A DNA stretch of 33,570 nucleotides. Origin: Parvularia atlantis (taxonomy: Eukaryota; Opisthokonta; Rotosphaerida). The position numbers and the translations under genes are program-made. Positions 2-18,682 of this stretch are shown here, in pieces. The stretch is from positions 1 to 33,570 of the forward strand of contig CALSCO010001667.1 in the NCBI GenBank assembly GCA_943704415.1. Direction: 5' to 3'. Within the stretch, counting starts at the first letter, position 1; every line of letters starts with the position of its first letter. The notes beneath the pieces were generated by a model. The model was not told the DNA's origin. It did not search any database and saw only the letters and a list, made by a program, of their open reading frames with translations.

Positions 2-172
2 GCGGCGGCGGCAACGAGCGCGGGCACTGGTGCCGTGACGCTGCCGGTCTACCTCAACGCGTCGCGCGCCCAGATGCTGTTCAACGTGCGGCTGGAGGTG
101 CGTGGCCTGGACGACAAGGGCGCGTACCAGCGCGGCCTGGCTTTGGTGGCGTCGCCGCTTAAGGGCCTGTGA
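2..172 (+). CDS. DYNC1H1: Cytoplasmic dynein heavy chain, C-terminal end (partial)
   Basis: Only the last 56 codons and the stop lie in the window; the gene begins to the left. The frame starting at base 2 ends in TGA at 170-172. The peptide has the LPVYLN motif followed by a conserved beta-strand ending (SRAQMLFNVRLEV) and a Tyr-x-Arg-Gly-x-Ala tail. These match the end of the C-terminal domain of cytoplasmic dynein-1 heavy chain, the minus-end microtubule motor. An alanine-rich stretch precedes the motif. Axonemal heavy chains end differently, so the cytoplasmic type is the better reading, though 56 residues cannot exclude dynein-2. The gene converges on the Gln-rich gene at 364-1163. Confidence 0.82.
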   Translation, partial: AAAATSAGTGAVTLPVYLNASRAQMLFNVRLEVRGLDDKGAYQRGLALVASPLKGL

Positions 173-1494: not shown

Positions 1495-3312
1495 GTGGAG
1501 GGTGCGGGCGCGGCGGCGGCGGCGACCGTAGCGCGCGGTGGCGGGGGCGAAGAAGACGAGGCTTGGTTGGCGCCACAACTTGCGACGAGAAATATGACGC
1601 GCCGCCATGCCTGGTGGCTGCTCATCGCCGCTCTGGGCGCCGTCGTGCTGCTGCAGCTGCGCCTCGCCCTGTGGCTGCACGGTGACCGCGACGCTGCCGG
1701 GCGTGCGGCCGAGGCGTATCCGAGGACGGGCGATGCGGTGTCGGCCGGGCCGTGGACCGTGCGCATCCGTGTGCCGCGCGCGGTGGCCGAGGACGAGCGG
1801 CTGATGGTGCTGGACGCGGCCGGACGCGAGCTGCATCTCGTGGAGCTGCGCGACGGCGTGGCGACGGTCGAGCGGCCGGTGCTGGACGGCGCCGTGCGTG
1901 TGCGTCTCGTGGCGACGGCCGATGCGCGCGTCGTGCTCGAGCGCGTCGTTGCCGTGCCGCCGATCGAGCTGGACGCTGACGACGACGCGGCACCGCTCAA
2001 CCGTGAGCGCGATGAGGAGATCTGGCGTGCGCGCACGGCGGTGGTGCTCGGTGCGGGCGCGGTGATGGACCTGCTGCTGCCGGACATGTTTGGGGCCGTG
2101 CATGTTCTGGCGTCACTGCACCACGTCGTCGCGCTGGCCATGCGCGAATGGACGGCGAGTGGTGTGTGGGACTATGCGCACGCGCCGCGTTTGCTCTTCT
2201 GGAACGACCGCGGTGCCGCTGCGTCGTGGCGTGCGGCCATGGTGCTACGCGGGCGGGAGGGCGGGCGCGAGAGGCACGCCGTCGTGCACGTCGCGGACGA
2301 TCAGACGCGACCGCCGCGCTTTGTCGCCGTACACGAGCCGGGGCCTGTGCGGCTGGTCGTGCTCATGCGCGGTGACGCACCTGCGTGGGCCGATCGTGGG
2401 CGCGTCTGCCGCGACGTCGCAGAGCTGCAAGCCGAGCCGGATGACACCGTCGTGCTGGTGGTCCTTGCGGTGCACGAGCGGCTGCTGGTAAATCTGCGCG
2501 AGTTTGCGGCGCAGCTGCAGGACATTCTGCCACCCAGTGGCGTCGGCTACGTGCCTGTGGCGCGGCGGGCTGGCACCGAGGCGCGCGATGACACCGAGTG
2601 CTTCAACCCGGATTACGACTGCCGCTACGGAGTGCACTGGGCGAGCTGGGAGCTGCCGCTGCTGGCCGTGCGCTGGCGCGACCTGCGACTTGCTGGTGCG
2701 CTTGCATCCCCGACAGCGCTGCTTCGCGGGCTGGAGCTGCGTGCGGGCGTGCGCATTGTGCGACTGCGCGACCGGTTCGTGCACCTTGTAAATTCCGTGG
2801 CCCCGCCGCCCCGCGCCGCTGCGACCCTTGCGACCGCGACTGTGCCCGCACCGGACGTGCTCATGCCAGCTGGCGCCGTGCGGGTGCGTGTGACGTCGTC
2901 TCTGCGGCCCTACGACGGCCACACGCTATGCCGTGCGCTGGATCAGAATGAGCGGACGTTTTTCTATGCGGAGCGGTCGATGCGCGCGGGCGACCGCGTC
3001 GTGCTGGAGCTGCCGGGCGAGCCGATGATCGGCGGCGTGCGCGTGTTCAGCGGCAGCTGGCAGCACCCGCTCAACTGGCTGCAGTTTGCCACGCTGGACG
3101 TGTTTGACGCAGACGGGACGCGTGCCTCGCCGACGTTCGACTTCACGCGGGGCACGAATGGCGTCGCGCGGATCGCGCTCAGCCCGCCGCAGCCCGTGCG
3201 GCGCGTCGAGCTCGTGGTGACGGCCGATCAGCCGGCGTGGCTGGTGCTGTCGCGCGTGGTGGTGCTGAACGCAGACCTGGTGCCCTTGCCCGTCGCATGC
3301 ACTGAAGTGTAA
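1495..3312 (+). CDS. Type II membrane protein, MGAT4/GT54-like
   Basis: Intronless 605-aa frame. MGAT4 enzymes are Golgi GlcNAc transferases that branch N-glycans. A single membrane anchor (about residues 38-58) follows a short cytosolic tail; the Met at 1594 (residue 34) is an alternative start giving a more typical tail. The C-terminal domain (about 455-598) matches the beta-sandwich that ends MGAT4. It has a Ser-Leu-x-x-Tyr-x-x-x-Thr-Leu opening, a Phe-Phe-Tyr-Ala segment, GD before a strand, FSGSWQHPLNWL, and QPAWLVLSRVVVLNAD at the end. Residues about 316-355 (DDTVVLVVLAV and on) also resemble MGAT4. The stretch between, where MGAT4 carries its Glu-Asp-Asp metal motif, is short and shows no such motif. 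I therefore call it GT54-like and do not claim transferase activity. Its stop is 27 bp from the stop of the convergent gene. Confidence 0.7.
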   Translation: MEGAGAAAAATVARGGGGEEDEAWLAPQLATRNMTRRHAWWLLIAALGAVVLLQLRLALWLHGDRDAAGRAAEAYPRTGDAVSAGPWTVRIRVPRAVAEDERLMVLDAAGRELHLVELRDGVATVERPVLDGAVRVRLVATADARVVLERVVAVPPIELDADDDAAPLNRERDEEIWRARTAVVLGAGAVMDLLLPDMFGAVHVLASLHHVVALAMREWTASGVWDYAHAPRLLFWNDRGAAASWRAAMVLRGREGGRERHAVVHVADDQTRPPRFVAVHEPGPVRLVVLMRGDAPAWADRGRVCRDVAELQAEPDDTVVLVVLAVHERLLVNLREFAAQLQDILPPSGVGYVPVARRAGTEARDDTECFNPDYDCRYGVHWASWELPLLAVRWRDLRLAGALASPTALLRGLELRAGVRIVRLRDRFVHLVNSVAPPPRAAATLATATVPAPDVLMPAGAVRVRVTSSLRPYDGHTLCRALDQNERTFFYAERSMRAGDRVVLELPGEPMIGGVRVFSGSWQHPLNWLQFATLDVFDADGTRASPTFDFTRGTNGVARIALSPPQPVRRVELVVTADQPAWLVLSRVVVLNADLVPLPVACTEV

Positions 3313-7388: not shown

Positions 7389-9584
7389 TCAGATGCGGCG
7401 CGTGTCGGCCGTGACGGTGCAGACGGCAAAGAGGCCGCCGTCCTCATCGTCGTCGTCGGCGCCAGCCGCGAGCGCGAGCGGGAAGAGGTCGTCCGAGCGC
7501 GAGAGGCGCAGCGTGCGCGACTTGTCGCCGCCCGTCCACGTGACGCTCCAATCGCACGGCTCGAGCCTGAACGCGCGGTCAGACAGGCGCATATACACAC
7601 AGTGAGCCGTACCGTTGCGCGACGTGTGCGATGACGACCGAGGCCGCCGACGAGAAGCGCGGCAGGCTCACGCGCAGCTCGTTGCACGGGCTCGACCCGA
7701 ACGCGGCCTGGCTGTTCGCCGTGGCCTCGAGCAGCGCCTGGACGATTTGGCTTTGCACCTCGAATGGCAGCGCCTTGATCGCCTGTACGCGCGCGCATGT
7801 CAAGAGTCAAGCCACGTGCGCTTGTGACGCACATACCTGCTTCGCAAAGACGAGCATGTCCAGCACGCGATGGCACGCCGTCAGCCGCACAACCTGCGCC
7901 ATGCGGTCCTCGCTCGCGTCGCCGATGTACGCGTGCTGTGCGCCCTACGTGTGAGACGCCTAGCGGGCATGAGGGGCCTGGTGAACGCACAAACATCGCC
8001 CAGCTGACCAGGTCTGCGCCTGACGAGCGCGCGGTATTCAGGCAATGCCAGGCGCGAGCGGTCGACGCGCACCGACAAAGAGGTGCGCAAAGTCGCGCCG
8101 CAGCTTGGCCAGGCCGAGGTCGAGCATGCACGCGATGGGGTTGTCGTGCCAGTGGTCAAACGCCTTTGACAGCGCGGCCTGGCGTGCGTGTTGAGCTCGC
8201 GCATGGTCGCAAGCGCGTTAGGCGGGCGCACCTTGATCTCGAGCGCGTCCTTGCTGCCCACGTCGAGGCGTGCGAGGCGCAGGGCGTCGTGAAACACGCG
8301 CGCGAGCCCGCTCGTGTTCGCCTTGTGCACAAACGGCTTAAGCTTGCCGGTCTCGACAGCCTGCACGCATGCTGAGCCGCGTGCTGATCGCTCAGGCGCG
8401 CACACGCACCAGGAAGACGCGCGCGAGGGCCACGGCGACCTGGTCCGAGTCGGCCGCGCCCTGTAGCAGCAGCCACAGCCGGTCGAGCAGGTCCAGGTCC
8501 GGGCGCTGCGGCAGGTCGGGCTCGGCGCCGTCTCCTGCGTCGTCGGCTACTGGCTGCGCAAACGCGTTGTGCTGCGCCTCGTCGAGGAACGCGTCAATCT
8601 CGCTCACAAAGAGGCCGCGGCCGCCGAGCGGGACGACGACGCTCGGGTCCTCCTGCGACTTCATTTCGGCCAGCTTGTCCTCGAGCTCGTCGATCTTGGC
8701 CAGCTCGGCCGCGAGCGAGCGCGTGCCCGCGTGCGCGTCCGGGTCGGCCTCGCGTGCGACGTCGCGCACGACCAGCGTCACGTCGGCCGAGCTGGGCGGC
8801 GCGCTGATCACGGCGGTGGGGCGCGACCCGCGCCACACGGCCTCAACCGTCACGGTCGACGACGGCGGCAGCTCGCCCTTGACCGAGAACGTGCCAAAGA
8901 CCTCGTACCGTGCGAAGAACGCATGGCTGTCGCGCTCGGCGGGCCCGTTGGCGCTGGTCCACCGCTGCAGCATCGCGTGCATGTGTGGGGCGCGCGCCGC
9001 GATGGGCGCAGCGGTGTTCTGCAGGTCGAGCAGCGTGCCGCGCAGCCCATTTTCCTTGTCGCCAGCCGCGTCGAGCCGCGCCGCGAGGTACTGCAGCGGC
9101 GCGCCATCAAAGCACGTCGTGAGCGCAACGACGGGCGGCAGCGCCTCGTCGCCGGCGACGTAGGCTGACACGAGCTGCCTGCGATGCGATGCGCGCGCAT
9201 GAGACAACGAAGCAGGAGGGATGCGGCGCACCGTGCGAGCTGCAGGTCGAGCGCGAGAGCCGCCGCGCCGACGCCCGCGAATGCCGCCGGCGTGACCCAG
9301 TGCGCCGCATCGGGCAGCACACGCAGGACGCCGGCAGCGACGTGGACGGCAAAGACGGGCATTGCGCGGGCCAAGGCGACAACGGCGGACGGTGGGAGCA
9401 GCACAAGCAGCGGGCCGGCGCCGAGCACGTCACGCAGCGGGTGCCACAGCTGCGCGGGCAGCGTCGCGAGCGTCCACGCCGCCGCCGCGCCCGCCTTGTC
9501 GCCGCTGCGCCCGGGCGGCACGCGCTGCTGCAGCCGCGCCGCGACCGCGTTCTCCATTTGAATCCGTAACCGTCGAAGTGTCAT
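7389..9584 (-). CDS. ZWILCH: Zwilch, subunit of the RZZ kinetochore complex
   Basis: Eight exons: 9584-9232, 9178-8410, 8360-8232, 8178-8073, 8019-7991, 7935-7837, 7782-7613, 7566-7389; 610 aa, or 601 aa from the Met at 9557. Human Zwilch is close to 590 aa. With Rod and Zw10 it recruits dynein and the Mad1-Mad2 checkpoint to kinetochores. Matches to the remembered human protein run along its length. They include ARQL plus an aromatic strand (from residue 117); YEVFGTFS before a strand and APPSSADVTLVVRDV; LDLLDRLWLLLQ; ETGKLKPFVHKANTSGL; and MLDLGLAKLRRDF. Later come a helix with HRVLDMLV, WSVTWTGGDKSRTLRLS, and an acidic tail ending in a Val-Cys-Thr-Val-Thr strand. An apparent frame jump near 8190 is an ordinary 53-nt intron (8179-8231). 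The start lies 57 bp from the divergent PDI start. Confidence 0.86.
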
Positions 9585-11926: not shown

Positions 11927-12053
11927 AAAACAGGAGCTGAGCGTGCAGATGTGCCGGCTGCGAGCTGTACGCGCAGCAATAATGTCACACTTGAAGGGCG
12001 ATGTCACAGATGCCCCACGTCTTTCGCCGCTCTGCGCTGCGCTGCGTGCCGTG

Positions 12054-12191
12054 ATGGCCGCGCCTCCTTCGCCCGCCGCGCCGTCGCCGCCGCCGCCGCC
12101 GCCGCCGCCGCTGGAGACGTGGGACGTGTTCCCGACGTACGCGTTCCTGGCGCACACGCCGTCGCCGGTGCCGCCCGCGGTGCCGCCGTCA

Positions 12192-12223
<32 letters not shown>

Positions 12224-14793
12224 ACTGCCGGGCGCGGCCCGTCGGGAGCGGCTGCGTCGTCGGCTGAGCGCGCGGCTGCTGCGGCGTGCGGCGGAGGGCG
12301 GCAGCGCGGCGGCGGCGGCGGGCGACGAGGGCGAGGGCGAGGAGGGGCGGGTGCACACGGACACAGTCGTGGTCGAGGCGCGTGCGACGGCGCAGCGGGC
12401 GGTGCGCGTGGCCGGGCCGGACGAGGACAGCGAGGGCGAGGGCGAGGGCGACGACGGCGAGCTCGAGCTGTGGTGGGAGTTCTCGCTCGAGTCAAAGGAC
12501 GTCAACTTTTGCCTGCGCTTCCAGCCGACGCGTCTTTCGTCGTCGTCGTCGTCGTTGACGCCGGCGTCGTCGGCGGGCCCCACGCCCGCGCCATCGCTCA
12601 CGTCGCTCGCCGTGGCCGACGTGCTCAAGGCGGCCGCGATCCCACCCATCACGCCGCCGCCGCCGCCGGTGGAGCACGCCGCCGCCGACGGCGAGATCGT
12701 CGCGTCGCCCGTGCTTGTGCTGTCGGCGCTGGGCGCGCACCAGGGTGCGTAGTCCCTCGTGTGTCGTGCGCGCTGCTGCTGCTGCTCAAGACGCGACCTC
12801 GCAGGGTGGTTCCCGGTCAAGCGCGGCGGGACGTTTGTGTTTGAGTGGGACAACACGTACAGCTACTTCACGCGCAAGCGCGTCGCGTGGTCGTGGGCGT
12901 TGCGACGGCGGCGGCGGCTCGAGGCGGGGCACACGCGGCCGAGTGACACGCTGCCGGTGTCGCTCGCGTGGCACGTCAGGCTGCACGTGCGTATTTGTGA
13001 TGTGCGCTGTGTGCTGCTGGGCTGAGCGCGCGCGCGAGCAGGGGTGGATGTACCAGCTGCGGCTCGAGTCGGTGCGCCGCTCGGTGATGCTGAGTGCGTC
13101 AGCCACAATCACCCGCCGTGTGCACGCTGACCGGGACGTGCAGGCCTGCTGCGGCGCGTCTCGGGCGTGGAGGCGACGGACGTCGACAAGCGGTGCGGCG
13201 CTGCGCTGCCCTGCGGCCTCGACCAGCGCGCTCACGGCTCAACCACGCAGGACCAAGTTTGACGCGCGCTTCCGCATGTTTCTCACAAACAACAGCGTCG
13301 GCAAGCGCGTCAACGTGCATGTGGCACTCGAGGGCGCGTCGCCGTGCTTCTCCGCCGTGGAGCCGAGCGGGCACCACCGTGTGCTGCGCGACGTGGTGTG
13401 CGCGGCCAACGGGCACTTTGCGGCCGTGTGCGAGCTCAGCGCGGCCGAGGTGCGGCGGTGGGCGGCCGCAGCGCACACGCCCGACTGGCCGCGCGCGCTG
13501 GCCGTGCGCATCAGCCGCGACGACACCCGTGCGTCGTCGCCGCCGCCCCGCGCTGCGGACCCCTGCTCACTCGGCGCACACGCAAACACAGCTGAGCGCG
13601 TGCTGCACACGCAGGTGCAGTTGATCGGCGCCGAGGGCTTCTCGCTCATCTCCGACATCGACGACACAATCAAGCTGACGCAGGTCGCGCTCGGCAAGCG
13701 CCGCGTGTTTGAGAACATCTTCACGCGCGACGCCGAGTCGGTGCCGGGCATGTCGCGGCTGTATGCGCAGCTGGTGCGTGTGCCGCGCGGTCAGTGCCGT
13801 GCGCGTCGCTGACGCATGCACCGCGACCGACAGCGCGGCCACGGCTTTGCGCTCCACTACGTCTCCAACACGCCCTACCAGCTCCACGGCATGCTCAGCG
13901 ACTTTATCCGCAAGCACGGCTTCCCGCCCGGGTCGTTCCACCTCAAGCTGTTCAACCTGAACGACCACACGCGCTCGGCCCTGCTCCAGCCGCCCGAGAT
14001 CTCCAAGCGCGAGGCCATCTTTGCGATCCTCAAGGACTTTCCGCTGCGGCGCTTTGTGCTCGTGGGCGATTCTGGCGAGCGCGACCCGGAGCTCTACGCT
14101 GCGGCTGCGCGCGCCTTCCCCAGCCAGGTCGCTGCCGTGCTCATCCGGCGCATTCTCGTGGCGCCGCGCGACGACGCCTCTGCCAGTGCGCCTCCCGCTG
14201 CCGCCGCCGCTGCTGCCGCCAGCGCCTCGCCGCCACCCAGCGCCAGCTCGCTCTTCTCGAGCTTCATGCCCGCATCGGCCTCGCCCTCGGCCACCCCGTG
14301 GACCGTCGGCCCCGGCGAGAACGACGGTGACATCGACCCGGCCGCGATGAGCGACGGCGAGTTTCTCCCGCTCGACGACGACGACCCCGCGACCGACTTT
14401 GTCAGCGCAGACGACGCTGACGACGACGACCGCGCCGTCTCGCCCGCGTCCTCCACGGGCTCCGCCACCCTCGGTTCCGTTGCCGCCCTCGGCTCGCCCA
14501 CCTTCCGCCCCGTCGCCTTCGCCCCGCCGCGCCGCTCCGCCAGCGCCGGCCCGTCGTCCGCCGCAGCCTCTGCGTCGCTGCTCGGGCTCACGGGGCGCAC
14601 CGCCTCGCCACCACCACCGCAGCAGCAGCAGCAGCAGCCGCAGGACGCGCCGCACCTCGCCGTACAGCTCACGCGGCGCATGCAGCGGCTCTTTGCCGCG
14701 CCCGATGCGCCGCCGTGGCTCCTGTTTGACGACGGCGAAGACGAGGCATTCCGCAAGGAGCTGGGGCATCTGCTCAAGCTCAGAGATCTGTAA
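12054..14793 (+). CDS. APP1: GOLD domain fused to App1-type phosphatidate phosphatase
   Basis: Seven exons: 12054-12744, 12805-12986, 13042-13093, 13144-13192, 13251-13528, 13592-13773, 13834-14793; 797 aa. In-frame upstream Mets at 11982 and 11949 are possible starts. App1 enzymes hydrolyse phosphatidic acid to diacylglycerol, in yeast at actin patches. Residues about 140-262 form a GOLD-like beta-sandwich: WWEFSLESKDVNFCLRF, then WFPVKRGGTFVFEWDNTYSYF. The App1 domain (about 330-575) carries SDIDDTIK with catalytic Asp439-x-Asp441-x-Thr443, a GM x x LY segment, HYVSNTPYQLHGML and GFPPGSFHLK. A Ser/Ala/Pro/Asp-rich, probably disordered region with a Gln run follows, ending in an acidic helix (DDGEDEAFRKELGHLLKL). 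The 63-nt intron 13529-13591 is a multiple of three without a stop, so its retention would add 21 residues. Confidence 0.9.
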
Positions 14794-17526: not shown

Positions 17527-18682
17527 ATGCTGTTCACGACGCGCGAGGACGCGGTGACGGTGCCCGTGCTGGCCGTGCCGATGCTGCTGGTGGCCGCGGC
17601 GACGGCGGCGCTGTGGGCGCGCCGGCGCGACATCGTCGTGCGGGCCAAGAGCGCCGAGCTGGTCGTGCTGCAGACGGCGGCGGGCTGGCTGTGGTTCGTC
17701 GGCTTTGTCGTGCGCAACGGGGTGCGTCGCCGTGTGCCTGCGCGCTCGCGGCTGACGGCCGCCCATCCCCCCCGCAGCACGTCGATCGCCCGCCCGACAG
17801 CGTCCTCGCCCTCTGCAGCCTCTGGTGGTTCGGCGTGGCGATGGTCCTCGGGTTCGGCCTGTGGGCGTCGTGCGTGCTCGTGCGCCTCGTGCGGCTGCGG
17901 CAGGCGTTCATCGGTGCGCGCCGCACGCCCGGCCTCGTTCGCCTCGCTGAGCGGCGCGCAGTCGGCGCGACGTCCAAGCTGCCGTGGATCGCGCTCGTGC
18001 TGCTGATGGACGCGCCGTTTGCGCTGTTCTACGGGCTGGTCGTGCCGGCGAGCGGGTGCGCGCCGCTGCTGTTCGTGCGCGGGGGCGCCGGCCGCGCCAC
18101 TCACGACGCGAACGCAGCGCCGTCGAGTACCGCCCGCCGCAGCGCATGTGCCTGTACACGAGCCGCGTGTGGGTCGCGATCGACTTTGCCGTCGTCCTGG
18201 CCGTGTTCCTCGTCCTGCTCGCGCTCGTGTGGCAGCTGCGGCACGTGCGCGACCAGCTGGGCGAGAACGCGAGCGTGCGGCGCGCCCTCGTCGTCTCGGC
18301 CGGGCTCTACTCGACCGCGCTCGCCGTGCAGCTGCTCCAGATCGACGACCGCTGGTGCGCGCGCACCGTCCGCTGGTCTACGCAACGCGGCTTGAGCACA
18401 CACAGGTACGGCCGCGCGCTCGAGACGGGCGCGATCGTCGGCGCGGTTGTGTGCTTCTTCATCGTCCAGGCCGGCGAGGCCGTCGTGCCGGCCGCGAGCC
18501 AACGCCTCAAGGCCGAGCTGACGACGGTCGCGGCCAACCTGAGCGACCCGGACGAGGAGAGCCAAGACCGCGACTACGTCGATGAGGGCGTCTTGCCCAA
18601 GCCGGCCGACGGCGCCAGCAGCAGCGGCAGCAGCACGCGCGCACGCCAGCGCATCTTCTCGCGCAGCGTGCTCGGCGAGTGA
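17527..18682 (+). CDS. Seven-transmembrane protein, possible receptor
   Basis: Four exons: 17527-17721, 17778-18055, 18118-18354, 18406-18682; 328 aa. Seven hydrophobic helices are visible: two in exon 1 (VPVLAVPMLLVAAATAALWA; the Leu/Trp-rich segment before RNG), two in exon 2, two in exon 3 and one in exon 4. Basic residues cluster between helices 1 and 2, and after helix 3 (RLVRLRQAFIGARR), consistent with an outside N-terminus. The tail is polar, with acidic and Ser-rich parts. The layout recalls 7TM regions of fungal and plant RGS-type receptors, but no RGS domain is present and no receptor-class motif stands out, so function is open. The intron 18355-18405 (51 nt, no stop) could be retained in frame. 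It converges on the bHLH gene with 38 bp between stops. Confidence 0.78.

Follow-up and report, generated by a model that had tools for sequence, protein, structure and literature searches.

Zwilch, Rod and ZW10 are encoded together in the genome of a probable fungus or nucleariid

We describe an eight-exon gene for Zwilch, a subunit of the Rod–Zwilch–ZW10 (RZZ) complex that helps to safeguard chromosome separation, in a 33,570-nucleotide stretch of eukaryotic DNA (the window, that is, the whole stretch that was analysed), together with genes for both partner subunits on further contigs of the genome, which encodes the whole RZZ set of Rod, Zwilch and ZW10. We consider it very probable that this Zwilch would act as a subunit of a complete RZZ complex retained from the opisthokont ancestor, the kinetochore dynein-recruiting mechanism included.

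Results

The gene lies on the minus strand between 9557 and 7389, where splice sites picked manually, with human Zwilch in mind, yield a single open frame of 604 amino acids and a stop, divided by seven GT–AG introns of 46–54 bases each. A previous reading of the letters alone (the sequence-only reading) had proposed an eight-exon Zwilch at 7389–9584 with a product close in length to the human protein; it started at an in-frame ATG at 9584, nine codons upstream of the ATG at 9557 used in this study. The proposal is borne out by the matches given below and by the length of the product (604 amino acids versus 591 in human Zwilch). The exons in window coordinates are as follows, where 'trained model' denotes the prediction of a gene finder trained on the inositol trisphosphate (IP3) receptor gene of the window.

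9232..9557, minus strand: exon 1, from ATG 9557 (alternative in-frame ATG 9584); same in the trained model
8410..9178, minus strand: exon 2, unbroken at two of three intron penalties and split into three at the other; Pfam match
8232..8360, minus strand: exon 3, in both the hand model and the trained model
8073..8178, minus strand: exon 4, in both the hand model and the trained model; includes Asp428 (8121-8119) and Ala432 (8109-8107), which correspond to the E422/D426 patch of human Zwilch
7991..8019, minus strand: exon 5, acceptor ambiguous (8019 in the hand model, 8013 in that of the gene finder)
7837..7944, minus strand: exon 6, acceptor ambiguous between 7944 and 7935
7613..7782, minus strand: exon 7, donor ambiguous between 7613 and 7601
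7389..7566, minus strand: exon 8 with the stop, acceptor uncertain (7566 or 7545)

As a check on the splicing, the gene finder was trained on the IP3 receptor gene alone and run at three intron penalties. At two of the three it returned exons 1–4 identically and agreed on one border of each of exons 5–8, at the mildest it broke exon 2 into three, and at all three it placed no gene on the plus strand. The check is not blind, nor fully independent, because the finder that supplied the IP3 receptor exons had itself been seeded initially with those of Zwilch; the GT–AG borders are likewise no evidence, since the finder permits introns of that type only.

Comparison with known families confirms the predicted product as a genuine Zwilch. 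In hmmscan against Pfam, the profile search for which the sequence-only reading had called, the 604-residue product matched Zwilch (PF09817) with an E value of 1.7e-14 and a score of 53.6 bits, above the cut-off of 25, residues 101–564 aligning with profile positions 85–535 of 568 in one stretch of 451 profile positions that leaves 100 residues at the N terminus and 40 at the C terminus unaligned; no other Pfam family appeared at E values up to 1. The trained check model was still recognized as Zwilch (44.3 bits, E 1.1e-11, profile positions 85–414). Among 177,635 distinct PDB sequences, the only two matched at E values up to 10 are both human Zwilch (7qpg_B, 7.7e-11; 3if8_B, 5.4e-8): residues 196–493 of the product align in one stretch with residues 202–483 of the human chain, LLEIGLDKLKKD in the human protein standing opposite MLDLGLAKLRRD here, whereas the N-terminal 100 residues, outside the Pfam match, set the product apart from its human counterpart. 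An exon-by-exon search of the whole genome with the Zwilch profile returned no match, which is a miss of that method, and exon 2 alone, with its fold predicted without an alignment, reached a mean pLDDT of 41.4, too poor for a fold search.

The sequence-only reading had also suggested looking for Rod (KNTC1) and ZW10 elsewhere in the genome, and both are present. Profile searches of the genome's contigs found Rod_C on C270 (6e-15) and Zw10_N on C527 (3.4e-7). The Rod model (C270, 10164 to 982, 2229 amino acids) starts at Met 10164 and drops three preceding and two following exons of the finder, the latter two overlying a gene on the opposite strand that we take to be TFIIA-like. It carries five KNTC1 Pfam domains in order (a beta-propeller, three ARM domains and Rod_C), with a sixth family, the THOC3 propeller, far below cut-off, and its last 651 residues matched PDB chain 7qpg_R at 5.2e-23; human Rod has 2209 amino acids according to an excerpt of PMC6224608. 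The ZW10 model (C527, 4549 to 1246, 749 amino acids used, the last exons being omitted) matched human ZW10 (PDB 7qpg_W) at 1.8e-69, and three other tethering families all scored below their cut-offs.

KNTC1_N: Rod, C270, E 3.5e-35
ARM_KNTC1_1st: Rod, C270, E 1.5e-36
Second ARM_KNTC1 domain: Rod, C270, E 4.9e-29
Third ARM_KNTC1 domain: Rod, C270, E 4.8e-27
Rod_C: Rod, C270, E 2.9e-36
Zw10_N: ZW10, C527, E 2.5e-8
ZW10 middle domain: ZW10, C527, E 8e-14
ZW10_C: ZW10, C527, E 2.4e-30
ZW10_C2: ZW10, C527, E 1.9e-26

The gene set resembles human RZZ (PDB 7qpg: KNTC1, Zwilch and ZW10) in uniting three subunits in one genome, in the propeller, three ARM domains and Rod_C of its Rod and in the four domains of its ZW10, the complex itself being predicted here from the genes. 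It has ZW10 in common with the Dsl1/NRZ tethering complex of yeasts and animals (Dsl1_C fell under its cut-off, E 0.0047), and the presence of ZW10 alone is uninformative on the kinetochore because this protein also serves vesicle traffic. What separates the set from Dsl1/NRZ is the presence of both Rod and Zwilch; fungi surveyed at the time yielded neither of the two, as far as the available text of PMC1557759 goes.

A change is suggested at one functional site. In one pairwise alignment, E422 and D426 of human Zwilch correspond to Asp428 and Ala432 here, so that one of the two positions is acidic. According to the part of PMC6224608 that we consulted, Spindly stays at kinetochores in human cells carrying Zwilch E422A/D426A while kinetochore expansion is blocked. 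With Asp428 and Ala432 in place of the human pair, the half-changed patch may alter the contact with Spindly or the growth of the corona. For Spindly itself, residues 1–353 of the human protein matched no Pfam family over cut-off, the only match being Pox_A_type_inc at 0.024.

The window also carries the end of a dynein heavy chain gene, as the sequence-only reading had rightly noted.

2..172, plus strand: C terminus and stop of a cytoplasmic dynein-1 heavy chain, from PDB matches; the rest of the gene is on C368

Cytoplasmic dynein-1 heavy chains make up eight of the nine PDB sequences listed for this frame at E values up to 1 (best 2.1e-4). The dynein gene on C368 runs off the end of that contig, and the last 89 bases of C368, read on the dynein strand, are the first 89 of the window; the window therefore continues C368, and the two adjoin with one dynein gene between them. 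Searched exon by exon, the AAA_6 dynein profile matched one contig only, which puts heavy-chain loci at one as a lower bound, and a radial spoke profile matched nothing in the same kind of genome search, again a lower bound. The single locus and the lack of a radial spoke match hint at an organism without a flagellum.

Two markers bear on the lineage. The EF-1A gene (L008) contains the insertion WFKGWKKLDKKGAEVKGVTLVEALDAI, which we take to be a mark of Opisthokonta (animals, fungi and their close kin), and on this ground the organism is an opisthokont. The genome further encodes a predicted Zn2Cys6 protein with a Fungal_trans domain (Zn_clus 1.4e-8, Fungal_trans 1e-14), and factors of this architecture are mainly fungal. 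Taken with the insertion, this points to a likely member of Holomycota, probably a fungus or a nucleariid; the sequence-only reading had raised an early-branching fungus, of which the broader placement is supported and the early-branching fungus is not shown. Exon-by-exon genome searches for Chitin_synth_1N, hydrophobin and glucan synthase matched none of the three, and these absences, like the flagellar ones, weigh little because the same search missed Zwilch. Caulochytrium protostelioides and Fonticula alba were considered as sources. An excerpt of PMC6784888 records hydrophobins in Caulochytrium protostelioides, whereas none matched here in a search that misses split genes. The GC content of the window is 68.3%; that of Fonticula alba is given as 70.3% in an excerpt of PMC10752896.

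Discussion

By analogy with the animal complex, Zwilch would bind the beta-propeller end of Rod, and ZW10 would join the pair, as it joins Rod and Zwilch in animals. Once assembled, the complex would occupy kinetochores that lack attachment, and Spindly or a similar adaptor would couple it there to dynein–dynactin, serving both checkpoint signalling and its silencing. For animals, the available portions of PMC6224608 and PMC9481740 describe how Zwilch binds the propeller of Rod and how RZZ, together with Spindly, builds the kinetochore corona and recruits dynein. In a survey of 90 eukaryotes, the profiles of Rod and Zwilch correlate at r 0.859 and these two proteins are treated with Spindly as a single co-evolving module (parts of PMC5579357); given that correlation, a working module predicts that Rod and Zwilch should occur together, as they do here. 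RZZ-dependent dynein recruitment at kinetochores, which the sequence-only reading had raised, is a putative function in this organism.

RZZ here is best read as the retention of an old complex that yeasts lost, because Rod and Zwilch are reportedly among the 49 ancestral proteins in the figure of the 90-eukaryote kinetochore survey. The text of that survey, as excerpted, assigns 49 of 70 kinetochore proteins to the eukaryote ancestor and a younger age to CenpF, Spindly and three of the CenpO/P/Q/R/U subunits, naming Rod and Zwilch in neither group (PMC5579357). The sequence-only reading had described RZZ as known mainly from animals and plants and missing from well-studied fungi; the second statement agrees with what we have of PMC1557759, and the first is probably too narrow in light of the parts of PMC5579357 that we used. 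An earlier survey (Schmitt 2010) placed RZZ components in diverse organisms and reported that their occurrence correlates to some degree with flagella and with whether mitosis is open or closed, as cited in the portion of PMC3785458 available to us. Our literature search found nothing on Zwilch in chytrids or on Zwilch at Mucor kinetochores, and for Zwilch with Spizellomyces or Batrachochytrium it returned the tethering-complex paper PMC3785458 only; the species tables in the figure and supplement of PMC5579357 lay outside that search.

The strongest competitor to a dynein-recruiting complex is a genome that retained the three genes without Spindly, so that no dynein would be recruited to kinetochores and Rod–Zwilch would act as a checkpoint scaffold or, with ZW10, in trafficking. 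The more recent origin inferred for Spindly and the half-changed acidic patch would both suit this reading, which we nevertheless judge improbable: across the 90 species Spindly tracks both Rod (r 0.730) and Zwilch (r 0.804), in the excerpted text of PMC5579357, and a dynein-1 heavy chain is present. Retention of the complete complex with its dynein-recruiting mechanism is the account that we prefer.

Two further alternatives concern the gene itself. The contig might be a contaminant, for example of animal origin, in an assembly that is in 616 pieces, and we regard this as very unlikely given that one finder, trained on Zwilch and the IP3 receptor with their short introns and GC-rich codons, also recovers Rod, ZW10, dynein and EF-1A from four other contigs, and that the window shares its 89-base overlap with C368. 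The common finder and the overlap suggest one genome, and do not speak for which. It might also be supposed that the Zwilch match comes from an unrelated alanine-rich protein or that the gene is a decayed copy, since the product has many alanines and the unspliced frames stay below threshold; of the five submitted, only two drew Zwilch at all (E 0.47 and 0.28), so that the Zwilch claim depends on the splicing. This supposition, to which we give next to no credence, is largely refuted by the single-stretch match over 451 profile positions, by the 604 codons free of internal stops and by shuffled copies of the check model, neither of the two submitted (of three made) drawing a Pfam family at E 0.01.

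A more specific picture, in which a relative of fungi that lacks a flagellum, perhaps a nucleariid, has the whole RZZ set and a changed Spindly-contact patch, is offered only tentatively and we think it rather doubtful. If true, such a carrier of RZZ would run counter to the association with flagella that has been reported for the complex, and Rod and Zwilch would have disappeared within the fungi, not at the root of their lineage. Because neither Rod nor Zwilch turned up in the fungi whose kinetochores have been dissected (PMC1557759), a small-genome relative of fungi that has both, along with ZW10 and dynein-1, could reveal the role of the ancestral system and the time of its loss. If Rod and Zwilch are already assigned to the eukaryote ancestor, the gene described here would be an added data point that leaves the picture unchanged.

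Other genes in the window

The rest of the window includes the IP3 receptor gene (32919-20494, minus strand, 2,697 amino acids, 77 predicted exons), in which Ins145_P3_rec, MIR, RIH and Ion_trans domains were found in the two pieces scanned; we know of no IP3 receptor in Dikarya. Together the Zwilch and IP3 receptor models contain 83 introns of 40–84 bases, 59 of which start with GTGCG, in a GC-rich genome. On the plus strand, 12001-14793 encodes a predicted APP1-type phosphatidate phosphatase (APP1_cat, 9.1e-45), 17527-18682 a predicted membrane protein with a sub-cut-off match to 7tm_3, the class C receptors (7e-6, 26.3 bits versus 33.5), and 1594-3312 a predicted protein with a weak sub-cut-off match to MGAT4A_C (0.0041). 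On the minus strand, 4958-3340 encodes an AAA_28 protein (1.6e-14), the second half of which presumably resembles the CYTH-like part of Ttd14.
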